NCBI GenBank assembly: GCA_015066245.1
Contig: SVOS01000003.1
Location: forward strand, 62,001 to 126,000
Source: Oscillospiraceae bacterium
GTDB taxonomy: Bacteria > Bacillota > Clostridia > Oscillospirales > Acutalibacteraceae
Reading direction: 5' to 3'
DNA: 64,000 nucleotides
The first letter of the stretch is position 1, and every line of letters starts with the position of its first letter. The translations under genes were made by a program, and so were the position numbers. Below are positions 15,089-53,896 of this stretch, piece by piece. The notes below the pieces were generated by a model. That model made no database searches, was not told the origin of the DNA, and saw nothing but the letters and a program-made list of their open reading frames with translations.

Positions 15089-15186
15089 TTTCAGCGGGAT
15101 GCAAGCCTTATACCGCGGAAATAATCCTTCGTCCTCTTGGCAACTCCCCGTCCAAGCGGCACTTTACGCACAAGGCTCTACTCTGT
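15089..15186 (-). promoter_or_regulatory. THF (tetrahydrofolate) riboswitch
   Basis: Minus-strand RNA shows the class I THF aptamer landmarks in order: AGAGTAG, then GCGTAAAGTG, GGGAGTTG, GACGAAG, GCGGT and TTGCATCCCGCT. An internal stem pairs AGCCTT with AAGGCT, flanking the core as in known examples. It lies directly before folT and an attenuator hairpin. Confidence 0.93.
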
Positions 15187-15196
15187 TTTTTCTTAT

Positions 15197-15980: not shown

Positions 15981-16005
15981 GAACAATACAAAAATGTATA
16001 TTGTC

Positions 16006-16113
16006 ATCTTTTCTCATCCGGACTATACCGTCGGCACAGGAATTACACCTGTTCAGCCTTTAAAGGCTCGTGGGCTTTACCACCGGTGGGGAATTTCACC
16101 CCGCCCCAAAGAT
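16006..16113 (-). promoter_or_regulatory. FMN riboswitch (RFN element)
   Basis: Minus strand reads TTTGGGGCGGGGTGAAATTC, ACCGGTGGTAAAGCCC, ACGAGCC and later GGTATAGTCCGGATGAGA, the invariant blocks of the RFN element. The closing P1 stem pairs ATCTTT (16113-16108) with AAAGAT (16011-16006). It controls ribU. Confidence 0.97.
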
Positions 16114-16121
16114 TTATAAGT

Positions 16122-24090: not shown

Positions 24091-24237
24091 TTTGACGGCA
24101 TCGAAAGTTTGTGCCAATTAGCAATACACATAAAAATCGACAGAAATTATTGTATAATATGACGAAGAATAATTCTGCTATAGAAAATAAAGTTGATTAT
24201 AATTCTGTAACAGAAATAAAAACACAAAGCTCAATTT

Positions 24238-24266
24238 TTGCAAAATCACAAAAAGTATGTCATAAT
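24238..24266 (+). promoter_or_regulatory. Promoter of the SleB-like gene and its leader
   Basis: TTGCAA - 17 bp - CATAAT. It predicts a start near 24273 and a leader of roughly 200 nt before the TTG start codon. The preceding bases 24091-24237 are AT-rich and I see nothing else in them. Confidence 0.6.
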
Positions 24267-24269
24267 AGC

Positions 24270-24475
24270 CCTCGGATTGTGTGATCAAGCAAAAATTTTA
24301 CTGCTTACACAAGACCTTACTTGAATCTCTGCAAAGCTTCAAAATAAAATTTCCTGCGGGAAACTTGAGGCCGAGCACAGTGTGACAATTCAATAAGGCT
24401 CTTGTCTTAGGGCACTTAGGCCGCGCTTGCGGTATGCACAGAACTTAACTTTGTATGTGCCCGGAATAAGGAGGA
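24270..24475 (+). other. Long structured 5' leader of unknown class
   Basis: About 200 nt with several pairings visible: TTGTGT..AAGC with GCTT..ACACAA (about 24277-24312), AAGAC with GTCTT over a long range (24311 to about 24408), TTTCC-TGCG-GGAAA (24350-24363), and a hairpin next to the SD where GGGCAC (24410) pairs with GTGCCC (24457-24462) around an inner CCGC-GCTT-GCGG. It does not show the invariant blocks of the c-di-AMP (ydaO), SAM, lysine, FMN, THF, cobalamin or T-box classes. It may be a riboswitch-like element or a separate small RNA. Confidence 0.45.
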
Positions 24476-24480
24476 CAAAT

Positions 24481-25212
24481 TTGATTAAAGCATTCAAAAG
24501 ATCGACTGCTATCCTGACACTGGCATTAGTAATCGCAATCGCAATTACACCCTGTCTTGTATGTTTCCTTGCAAACAACAATGTACAGGCAGCCGAGGAG
24601 TCTGATAGCCGACCCGAAGGAAGCATTCAGCTTGTAACCAAGACTTATAAGGAAGACCAAATTCTTTCAGCAAAACAGGACGACGAGTCCTTCTCCAGAG
24701 CTCAGGCGTTTGACCTTGCAATCAAGGCAACCGCAAAAGCAGTAACTGAGCTTGAGGAGCAGAAGGAGTCAGGTGAGGCAGTTCTCTGTGCGACAGAGAG
24801 TAAGGATTTTCTGCTTCAGATTGACAACCCTGACACATCTTATGTTAGCTACAGCGTAGAGCTCTCTGATTATGACAGAGATGTTCTTGAGCACCTTGTA
24901 ATGGGTGAAGCAGGCGGACAGGGATTTATCGGTTGTGCACTTGTTGCTCAGGCAATCAAAGACACACTCATTACCGATGGCTACCCCTCAGTTGACGCAG
25001 TAAGAGTCGGCAACGGCTACTCTGCTTCTCTCGATAATGTTCCCAACCAAGATGTATTAGACGCTATCGAATTCGTATTCGATAACGGCGGTGCCGCAGT
25101 ACAGCATAGGGTAATCTACTTTTACGCACCTAACGTATGCGAAAGCGCATTCCACGAGTCACAGAATTATGTTGTAACCCACGGTGGTCACAAATTCTTT
25201 GACAGATGGTAA
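24481..25212 (+). CDS. SleB-like cell wall hydrolase, secreted
   Basis: 243 residues from TTG 24481, chosen because AAGGAGG lies seven bases upstream. The N-terminal hydrophobic segment (about 9-30) acts as signal peptide or anchor, ending near VQAAEE. A helical linker (about 68-95) follows. The C-terminal Hydrolase_2/SleB-type domain starts at LSDYDRDVLEHLVMGEAGGQ, with the probable catalytic Glu143, and continues through GCALVAQAIKDTL to the end. SleB enzymes are lytic transglycosylases that degrade spore cortex at germination; vegetative relatives exist, so the role here is open. Confidence 0.82.
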   Translation: MIKAFKRSTAILTLALVIAIAITPCLVCFLANNNVQAAEESDSRPEGSIQLVTKTYKEDQILSAKQDDESFSRAQAFDLAIKATAKAVTELEEQKESGEAVLCATESKDFLLQIDNPDTSYVSYSVELSDYDRDVLEHLVMGEAGGQGFIGCALVAQAIKDTLITDGYPSVDAVRVGNGYSASLDNVPNQDVLDAIEFVFDNGGAAVQHRVIYFYAPNVCESAFHESQNYVVTHGGHKFFDRW

Positions 25213-25373: not shown

Positions 25374-25482
25374 GCATTACGCACGTCGGGTATGCTCTCA
25401 AGGTGTAATCTGTGACGTTCGGATTATATACAGAGTAAATTTCAAAGCTCGGCGGAGGTTTTAACCTAAGGAGGAAAATAAA
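25374..25482 (+). promoter_or_regulatory. rpsB leader with repeated hairpins
   Basis: The leader holds GCAT..ATGC around ACGTCGG (25375-25396), a second ACGTTCGG motif in AATC..GATT (about 25407-25425), and an AGGTT-TT-AACCT hairpin next to the SD AAGGAGG. It could be an S2 autoregulatory site; this is inference. Confidence 0.4.
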
Positions 25483-51753: not shown

Positions 51754-52641
51754 ATGCAGTTTATTGCAGAATGGTTCAATGACTTTATTGCTTTAATGAG
51801 CACATTCAGATTCAATGACTTTATTGATATCTTGCTGATTTCGGTGCTTATTTACAGCTTGCTTAAACTTATCAGAGATACCCGAGCCGAACAGCTCCTT
51901 AAGGGTTTGCTCTTTATTTTTGTTATTTATGTAATTGCTATGGTGTTGGATCTGATGATGGTAACTACCATCATCAAGGTAGTGTTTGAATCTTCGGTAA
52001 TTTTGATAGTTATTGTCTTTCAGCCCGAAATCCGAAAAGCACTTGAGCAGCTTGGCAGAAGCAAGTTTGCCAAGACTTACAAGATGATATTCCAGGGCGG
52101 TCTGCTTTCAGATGCAGAAAAAGAGGATATTAACAAGTCTATCGTAGATGTTGCTGATTCCGCAACCTTGTTCAGCCACACCAAGACAGGCGCGTTGTTT
52201 GTTTTCGAAAGAGAAACTCACCTGACCGATATTGCCTCAACAGGTACCGAGCTTAACGCCAAGACTTCTACCGCAATATTCGGCAACTTGTTTTTCAACA
52301 AAGCTCCCCTGCATGATGGTGCCTGCATTATCCGTCAGGGCAAAATCTACGCTGCAGGTTGTATCCTTCCTCTTAACAGCAATGAAATCAGATACTCAGG
52401 CGTAGGTACCCGCCACAGAGCTGCTTTAGGCGTTTCTGAAGTATCAGATGCAGTTGTTGTAGTTGTTTCTGAGGAAACAGGCATTATCTCAATTGCTGTT
52501 GACGGTGTTCTTAAGCGAGACTTTGAACGCGATAAACTTATAAGCACCCTCCAGGAGCTTATTATTCCCGAGGAGCCCGACAAGCCCACAGATAAGCTCA
52601 AGCGTGTTGCTAAAAGGAGGTCGAAGAAAGATGCAGAATAA
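51754..52641 (+). CDS. cdaA: Diadenylate cyclase CdaA
   Basis: Makes the second messenger c-di-AMP from two ATP. 295 residues: three N-terminal membrane helices (about 25-90), a linking helix, and the DAC domain with DGA (188-190, in PLHDGACIIRQG) and RHR (220-222, in GVGTRHRAALGVSE). The Lys-rich tail ends where cdaR begins, overlapping by eleven bases. It precedes the YbbR regulator, the standard cdaA-cdaR pair. Confidence 0.97.
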   Translation: MQFIAEWFNDFIALMSTFRFNDFIDILLISVLIYSLLKLIRDTRAEQLLKGLLFIFVIYVIAMVLDLMMVTTIIKVVFESSVILIVIVFQPEIRKALEQLGRSKFAKTYKMIFQGGLLSDAEKEDINKSIVDVADSATLFSHTKTGALFVFERETHLTDIASTGTELNAKTSTAIFGNLFFNKAPLHDGACIIRQGKIYAAGCILPLNSNEIRYSGVGTRHRAALGVSEVSDAVVVVVSEETGIISIAVDGVLKRDFERDKLISTLQELIIPEEPDKPTDKLKRVAKRRSKKDAE

Positions 52642-53896
52642 GTCTTTGTTCAGCCGCTTTTTAACCAACAAAAAAGTTATCTTTATTGTTTCGGTTATCC
52701 TTGCTTTTATATTCTGGATTCTTACTGCCGATAATATTACAAAAACTTTCACAGAAATTCCCATCAGATACAGTCTCCCTGAATCTATAGCTCAGGAGTT
52801 TGAGATTTTTGGTGCCAGTGACGAAACAGTTTCCGTAACAGTTGAGGGCAAGCGTGTTGCAGTTGACGCTATGAGTAACGAAAGCTTTACTGCATTTATT
52901 GATTTGTCAGATGTTACAGAGCCCGGCGAGAAGAGCTATAATGTATCTGTCAGAAGCTCAGAGAATCTTAACATCGATATCAGTCGTGTAGAGCCGTCAA
53001 ATATCACATTGATGATTGACAGACCAATGACAAAGTCAGTTCCTCTCAAAACCGACTTTTCATATCATCCCGATGGATATTATGTTGATAACAACGCTCC
53101 CGAAACCGTTGAAGTTACAGGCCCCGAAAGCTATGTTAGTCTTGTTAAATGTGCTTATATAAGCGGAAATGTTACCTCAAATTCAGCCACAAGCGTAACC
53201 AATAGTTATAAGCTGACATTGTATGATAATCTTGATCCCAAGAGCAAGGATGCAAAGCCTGTTGACAGTGAGTATCTGACTCTCAGCTATGATAGCGTAG
53301 AGGTTACTTTTAAATACCTCGTATTGAACGAGAGTGTTCCGTTCTCCATTGTTAACGACGAGGGCATTGAGGTGCCCGAAGATTATTATACCTTCACACC
53401 GGGTAACATAAGCTTGGCAGTTCCCGTATCTGCATTGGATGAGAACAACCAGTTTGTAAAATTACCTGTTGATATGGGCAGGCTTTCTCAGTACAAGAAC
53501 GAAACCTACAACTTTACCCTTGATGTTTCTGATGTTCTTTCGAGTGATATGGTCAGCAAGAGTGACGGACTTGACAAAATCAAATACAAACTTGATTTTT
53601 CATCACTTATAAAGAAGACAATAGAAATATCTTCTTCAAGATGTCAGGTGCTGAATATGCCCGATGGTTTTAGTTACAACAAGCCTGATACCTATAGCAT
53701 TGTGGTCATAGGCACAAAGAATGCTCTGGATAATATTGATGTTAACAAAGTTGATATGACACTTGATTTCACTTCTGTTGAAGCAAAAGATGATAAGTAT
53801 GTGGATGTTCCAGTTACAGTAGATCTTAATACCGAGGGCTTTTGCTGGGCATACAGACAATCTCCCACAACAAGTGTAAGAATTACTGCAGAGTAA
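52631..53896 (+). CDS. cdaR: YbbR domain protein, CdaA regulator
   Basis: 421 residues from ATG 52631 (AAAGGAGG upstream, inside cdaA). One N-terminal membrane helix (about 16-34) anchors an extracellular array of about four YbbR-like repeats, seen as recurring segments such as ETVSVTVEGKRVAVDAM, PETVEVTGPESYVS and TYSIVVIGTKNALDNI. Known CdaR proteins bind and adjust CdaA activity. No GlmM gene follows; a terminator does. Confidence 0.92.
   Translation: MQNKSLFSRFLTNKKVIFIVSVILAFIFWILTADNITKTFTEIPIRYSLPESIAQEFEIFGASDETVSVTVEGKRVAVDAMSNESFTAFIDLSDVTEPGEKSYNVSVRSSENLNIDISRVEPSNITLMIDRPMTKSVPLKTDFSYHPDGYYVDNNAPETVEVTGPESYVSLVKCAYISGNVTSNSATSVTNSYKLTLYDNLDPKSKDAKPVDSEYLTLSYDSVEVTFKYLVLNESVPFSIVNDEGIEVPEDYYTFTPGNISLAVPVSALDENNQFVKLPVDMGRLSQYKNETYNFTLDVSDVLSSDMVSKSDGLDKIKYKLDFSSLIKKTIEISSSRCQVLNMPDGFSYNKPDTYSIVVIGTKNALDNIDVNKVDMTLDFTSVEAKDDKYVDVPVTVDLNTEGFCWAYRQSPTTSVRITAE

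Follow-up and report, generated by a model that had tools for sequence, protein, structure and literature searches.

A genus-restricted structured leader RNA that probably controls translation of a SleB-like peptidoglycan hydrolase gene

What does a long structured leader do in front of a single hydrolase gene? In the window, by which we mean the whole stretch of 64,000 nt analysed here and whose numbering we use throughout, a gene for a remotely SleB-like hydrolase of 243 amino acids (24481–25212, + strand, UUG start) follows a region of 214 nt (24267–24480, + strand) that holds several hairpins, the last one G+C-rich. The first-pass annotation had described a structured leader RNA of unknown class, about 200 nt long, with a final G+C-rich hairpin beside the Shine–Dalgarno (SD) sequence. 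Length and layout are as described, the terminal hairpin (P6) lying 5 nt before the SD, and the description is supported as a whole, for the leader falls in no Rfam family and has homologues that covary. We argue that it is probably a genus-specific cis-regulatory leader RNA controlling translation initiation of the hydrolase gene. That it is a structured cis-regulatory leader we hold with high confidence, as the stretch from a conserved promoter to the SD is occupied by an RNA that is itself conserved and covaries, and that occurs once in each genome carrying it, always before the hydrolase.

A scan of the window leader against Rfam 15 gave no match at gathering level, and the only match in the leader region at E up to 10, RAGATH-25, lies over the promoter with 11.4 bits where 49 are needed, so the earlier placement of the leader outside the known riboswitch classes stands. 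None of 19 further loci (three, five, six and five from the leader classes A, B, C and D described below) reached gathering. In the window as a whole, the sole gathering-level matches are an FMN riboswitch (16002–16117, − strand) and a THF riboswitch (15090–15187, − strand). A literature search, in which subscription papers were mostly out of reach, returned no description of the leader, which is a real, genus-restricted cis-regulatory RNA, apparently new to the literature. As a single sequence it gives no sign of unusual structure, since its fold energy has a z of −1.52 and 14 of 200 shuffles are at least as stable; the structure that had been called unusual is not so by fold energy, and it is the homologues and their covariation that speak for it.

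Of the 161 genomes in the genus, 12 hold a leader of the window type, which we term class A. These 12 carry the exact string GATTGTGTGATNNAGC (52 genomes do when one mismatch is allowed), and R1, a covariance model of the class A core built from 6 sequences with 33 pairs, matches once in each of these 12 genomes, with E ≤ 0.0022. In a search of 137 kb, R1 gave E values of 3e-26 and 1e-24 to two further relatives, and of 7e-6 to 2e-4 to the four leaders of the window's group. Six other matches in the genus, at E 0.27–0.77, are not leaders by eye, one of them (L100) having 15 of the 16 letters of the search string. Under stricter filters, which lose weak matches, R1 found the window's own leader alone among 398 genomes of the family, at least six of which belong to the genus. 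All 12 class A leaders sit between a YlmC/YmxH-like PRC gene and the hydrolase gene, with rpsB next. They form two groups, one of eight (L003, L034, L058, L066, L067, L068, L073 and L078) and one of four (the window, L031, L032 and L033). Identities were computed for 13 of the 66 possible pairs, 12 of them within a group. In all 12 within-group pairs the identity of the 140-nt core is above that of 176 nt of upstream DNA; it also exceeds the hydrolase coding sequence in 10 of 12 (equal in L001/L031, lower in L001/L033) and the protein in 10 of 12. Thus L003/L068 share 0.87 of the core against 0.63 upstream, 0.66 in the coding sequence and 0.64 in the protein, the values for L003/L067 being 0.76, 0.63, 0.74 and 0.75. 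In the one between-group pair, L001/L003, the order is reversed (0.47, 0.60, 0.59 and 0.51).

The class A fold, given here in window coordinates on the + strand, has its first conserved block, GAUUGUGUGAU (24275–24285), near the 5′ end. Every one of the 12 class A leaders has this block and CAAAAU, both of which lie largely outside helices; AAUAAGGAGGAC is also common to all 12, and the UUGUGUG of the first block recurs outside class A, at 23 of the 24 loci in class B and 48 of the 49 in class D. UUGUGU (24277–24282) can form a 5′ clamp with ACACAA (24307–24312), four pairs being available in 12 of 12 leaders, and a small hairpin, P0 (AAGC 24287–24290 with GCUU 24303–24306), lies in the same stretch (24277–24312). 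The helix P1, formed by CAAGACCUUA (24310–24319) and UAAGGCUCUUG (24394–24404), closes an aptamer-like domain, and its inner pair is swapped between the groups, being G-C in four leaders and C-G in eight. Inside the domain lie P2 (UGAAU/AUUCA, 24322–24392), whose strands are different yet paired in the eight relatives; P3 (CUCUGC 24327–24332 with GCACAG 24375–24380), paired by eye and carrying a C-C mismatch in the window; and P4 (GCUUCAA/UUGAGGC, 24336–24371), which encloses P5 (UUUCC/GGAAA, 24350–24363). Downstream come UUGUCUU (24402–24408), the UUG of which is common to P1, the terminal G+C-rich hairpin P6 (GGGCAC 24410–24415 with GUGCCC 24457–24462), and the SD (AAGGAGG, 24468–24474) with a conserved spacer and the UUG start (24468–24483 in all). 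UUGUCUU is also the 5′ strand of an alternative helix, Hc, whose 3′ strand is AGGACAA (24472–24478).

Covariation among homologous leaders, the check that the first-pass annotation had proposed, was found. The eight-leader group was aligned by R1, an alignment that is thus fitted to the structure; of its 262 cells 94.3% pair, and 11 of 33 pairs, with 17 cells, are changed on both sides. The shuffled means are 3.8 pairs and 4.6 cells, with 0 of 500 shuffles as good, and slid controls reached at most 4 pairs and 7 cells. By helix, both-side changes fall in 6 of 8 pairs of P3, 2 of 5 of P4, 2 of 4 of P5 and one pair of P0; P1 and P2 have none within this group, and the covariation of P3 comes from the eight relatives, not from the window. 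Permutation counts on strands chosen by eye agree for P6 (12 leaders, 69 of 72 cells paired in 8 different helices, a count equalled in 1 of 20000 permutations), for the inner five pairs of P4 (12 leaders, 58 of 60 cells, 15 of 20000) and for P3 (8 leaders, 46 of 48 cells, 5 of 20000). RNAalifold on MAFFT alignments of 8 and of 12 leaders gave weak folds unlike the hand-set model; the pairs were therefore placed by hand, and the counts are thereby biased upward. By eye, no conserved reading frame for a leader peptide was visible. The leader is a conserved structured domain with covariation, as expected of riboswitches in general.

The leader would begin directly after an extended −10 promoter (TTGCAA-17-CATAAT, 24238–24266, + strand), in which the −35 element TTGCAA (24238–24243) and the −10 element CATAAT (24261–24266), preceded by TG, are 17 nt apart and match 9 of 12 consensus positions. 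Sites at this level are frequent by chance, 13 lying between 23600 and 25600 against 5.5 expected, and a second 9/12 site falls within the leader itself (24321–24350). The position is nevertheless kept in the homologues: the −10 element lies 10–11 nt before the start of UUGUGUG in nine of nine class A loci examined (out of 12) and in 46 of 49 class D loci, and 14–15 nt before it in 16 of 23 class B loci, three of which have no recognised −10. The promoter predicted at 24238–24266 is accordingly borne out by its kept spacing. Upstream of it, the + strand carries two palindromes 30 bp apart, TTCTGCTATAGAA (24173–24185) and TTCTGTAACAGAA (24203–24215). Downstream of the PRC gene, a TTCT-N5-AGAA motif is present at 7 of 9 loci in class A, 14 of 35 in C, 2 of 24 in B and 0 of 49 in D, and the loose palindrome pattern occurs 55 times in the genome compared with 15 for a backwards control; a regulon search with the upstream palindrome gave no gene theme among the sites inspected.

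The gene behind the leader resembles SleB remotely. Its product has, by eye, an N terminus like a signal peptide. TIGR02869 gives E 0.007 for the window protein, 3e-5 for L034, 1e-4 for L003 and 0.04 for L009, all far below the cut-off, with no match in L025 or L018. PF07486 (Hydrolase_2) gives E 0.17 for the window and 0.073 for L034, with none in 7 other homologues at E ≤ 0.1 and none of 18 at E ≤ 0.05. A profile search of the PDB returned nothing for the hydrolase, and a fold search from a poor model (pLDDT 53) placed three SleB catalytic domains on top at E 2.1–3.5e-3, none at E ≤ 0.001. The label SleB-like denotes remote similarity only.

Gene order at the locus is the YlmC/YmxH-like PRC gene, the leader, the hydrolase gene and then rpsB-tsf, in a host genome of 1.8 Mb (G000) whose genus includes R. 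bromii. In a tblastn search of 71 rpsB loci (L234–L304), many of them stretches too short to show either gene, the hydrolase lies near rpsB only in the two that belong to this genus; 18 loci, among them these two, show the PRC gene. Because the hydrolase is found near rpsB in this genus alone, hydrolase and leader may be a genus-level insertion.

Class A is one of several leader types in this position. The PRC gene is present in 140 of the 161 genomes, and 140 loci were read from 139 of them, G124 giving two and G145 being left out as its contig ends nearby; 11 of the 140 have no hydrolase in the stretch read. Sorting 126 loci by string rules gave 49 of class D, 35 of C, 24 of B, 9 of A and 9 unassigned, of which L118, L136 and L103 resemble class C by eye; the class A loci L033, L058 and L067 were left out of the sorting, no start codon having been found in the open frame. 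The other six unassigned loci of the 126 have only a short spacer (88–142 nt) and no such leader. Class D, which comes to 58 loci when nine of the 11 loci with no hydrolase in the stretch read are added by R2, a class D covariance model built without class B, begins with UUGUGUGUUUGAUAAAAUUU (exact in 48 of 49), followed in most by a stretch like ACGACUAAAG and then a variable stem, and ends with GGAGGANAAAUUUUUG (49 of 49). The R. bromii ATCC 27255 locus (L043), identical to L018 of G032 across 3411 nt, belongs to this class. Both-side changes affect all 7 of 7 pairs of the class D stem P2, and the whole structure has 75 such cells against a shuffled mean of 24.3 (0 of 500 shuffles as good), the outer helix UUUGAU/AUCAAA having none. 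By eye, the AAAAUUU of class D leaders such as L194 (461–611) has a possible partner, AAAUUUU, between SD and start; this pairing would cross UUUGAU/AUCAAA and make a pseudoknot around the SD, with strands that are nearly invariant.

R2 also links the classes to different degrees. Across the 161 genomes at E ≤ 0.1 it matches 71, at one place each, of which 58 are class D and 12 class B, the remaining one (G079, E 0.07) being doubtful. It crosses to six of eight class B loci at E ≤ 8.3e-4 (0.032 and 0.22 in the others) and to none of three class C loci at E ≤ 10. On class A its best values are 0.022, for the SD end alone of L034, and 0.029, for L068 over the whole leader, with 0.28 for the window leader; R1 matches none of six class B and four class C loci at E ≤ 10. 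Classes B and D are related. UUGUGUG, the SD–start region and the usual UUG start are what class A has in common with them. In the 24 class B loci, UUGUGUG is found in 23 and ACGACUAAAGA in 13, the latter also in 22 of 49 class D loci, and a CGAAAURAA stretch occurs in 27 of 35 class C and 13 of 24 class B loci. By eye, class B loci such as L115 and L151 show a hairpin like UACG/CGUA (GCGCGU/ACGCGC in L151), missing in several others, whose loop UUUAG could pair with a preceding CUAAA. All 49 class D loci and all 23 class B loci with the exact string have UUG as the codon that follows the SD, and so do 9 of 12 class A loci, the exceptions being AUG in L058 and L067 and UAG in L033. In L033 (G026), this UAG takes the place of the UUG start of its close relatives, and the frame downstream stays open, with 91% identity to the window protein.

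We tentatively propose the following mechanism. Control of translation is the likeliest mode and one we consider likely in itself, as the SD, spacer and start belong to the conserved unit and no terminator was seen. In all 12 class A leaders, (A/G)CAA(C/G) has two possible partners, the 5′ UUGU and the 3′ (G/C)UUGU, the latter pairing being P1, and the 3′ UUGUC can alternatively pair with GAC(A/G)A directly after the SD to form Hc (6 of 6 pairs in nine leaders, 5 of 6 in three); formation of P1 excludes both the clamp and Hc. The 5′ domain, P1 to P5, would be the sensor. When (A/G)CAA(C/G) is held by the 5′ UUGU, the UUGUC freed from P1 would pair after the SD, beneath P6, limiting ribosome entry, and a signal favouring P1 would lead to more hydrolase being made. 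Forced folds differ by 0.6–5.3 kcal/mol, P1 being better in the window's group and L078 and Hc in the other seven; in the window's group the model prefers P1 by 4.3–5.3 kcal/mol. In none of the 12 leaders does the ensemble probability exceed 0.35 for P1 or 0.24 for Hc. In the window's minimum free energy fold, the SD partly pairs with CCUC at the 5′ end. Because P1 and Hc are nearly invariant, the exchange rests on conservation, the one C-G/G-C swap between groups and U-A/U-G changes, and we infer both the switch and its ligand. As an expression platform, the exchange is a conserved possibility, and the leader may act through it, which we put somewhat short of an even chance. That the leader is a small-molecule riboswitch is a more tentative proposal still, and a cell-wall or second-messenger cue as its signal is a guess.

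Among the alternatives, the one that survives best, and which we regard as doubtful, is a structured UTR with a passive role, fixing mRNA stability or, together with the UUG start, a constant low rate of translation. The near-universal UUG start in classes A, B and D would suit it, as would folds that differ among classes before the same gene and the six loci that have only a short spacer. It has no need, however, of conserved blocks that lie largely outside helices, such as GAUUGUGUGAU and CAAAAU in every class A leader or UUGUGUGUUUGAUAAAAUUU in class D.

Rather less probable is a leader that binds a ribosomal or other RNA-binding protein in place of a small molecule. Protein-binding leaders commonly serve a single gene, have a narrow range and change architecture fast, all of which fits, and rpsB lies downstream of the hydrolase gene; the hydrolase product, however, looks secreted rather than RNA-binding. 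One weak class D match falls in an rpsB leader: of four R2 matches among the 398 family genomes, two are of this genus and two lie outside it at E about 0.03. L234 (G196, whose genus consists of one genome; E 0.036) is the one in the rpsB leader, and for L233 (G487, E 0.031) a coding frame runs, by eye, on the opposite strand. An E of 0.036 per genome is chance level across 398 genomes. In the last 150 nt of the 71 rpsB 5′ regions, read by eye, only L234 has TTTGATAAAATTT without mismatch and most share a different conserved region, so that we take this match as chance and reject kinship between the two leaders. In the window, rpsB has its own promoter-like site and its own conserved region (25376–25482, + strand; CACGC ... 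GGTGC ... GCGGAGG ... AACC ... AAGGAGG), seen by eye in most of the 71 loci and free of + strand Rfam matches at E up to 10, which makes it a candidate S2 leader.

Two further readings are very improbable. An RNA thermometer would accord with the largely paired SD of the window (mean unpaired probability 0.27), but this value runs from 0.22 to 0.76 over the 12 leaders, no Rfam thermometer matched, and the conserved blocks lie largely outside helices. A diverged c-di-AMP riboswitch would fit a class that controls cell-wall genes elsewhere (PMC9960051, accessible text), and cdaA, the c-di-AMP synthase gene, is indeed in the window where c-di-AMP synthesis had been noted, at 51.7 kb (51754–52641; Pfam DAC, E 9e-41), followed by a YbbR-like gene (the two spanning 51754–53896, + strand). 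Against it, and in keeping with the earlier statement that the leader is not of this class, RF00379 has no match in the window leader at E up to 10, and none in 161 genomes of the genus under stricter filters, which can lose weak matches but detected the controls in B. subtilis and C. glutamicum. Least probable is the independent sRNA also suggested at first, since its own promoter at 24238 and 214 nt of structured RNA are met by conservation running through SD, spacer and start and by the lack of any terminator-like site found between 24267 and 24481, which makes a terminating riboswitch unlikely too.

With its promoter, covarying domain and SD conserved before one gene, the leader we read as a probable translational regulator displays individual features of several known systems, here compared through the accessible text of the papers cited. 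Like the c-di-AMP riboswitch (ydaO-yuaA, RF00379), which controls cell-wall genes (PMC9960051; PMC7266159), it is a cis leader before a cell-wall gene; unlike it, the window leader gives no match to the model and is so far tied to one gene in one genus. The yjdF motif, an orphan riboswitch candidate, is likewise a conserved structured leader associated almost exclusively with one gene (PMC4793209), whereas the window leader is found in one genus only. Ribosomal-protein leaders are also structured, limited in range and different between lineages (PMC7247131), but here the first gene downstream is a hydrolase; rpsB appears in the accessible text of that paper solely as a further gene of the L13 leader in Bacteroidia.

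In the literature found, as far as its accessible text goes, structured-RNA control of cell-wall genes means c-di-AMP riboswitches. Here is a gut-bacterial genus with cdaA in the window genome and RF00379 undetected in 161 genomes that yet keeps structured leaders before one hydrolase. In the most speculative form of our model, which we think unlikely, classes A, B and D would be one fast-evolving sensor and a new riboswitch class. Its UUGUGUG and A-rich blocks would recognise a second messenger or a precursor of the cell wall, and in R. bromii-type bacteria it would fill the role of the c-di-AMP riboswitch, which was not detected there. The leader is an orphan RNA to be matched with a signal, and a locus that holds several leader types, of which two covary, would make it possible to trace the remodelling of a regulatory RNA before a constant gene.
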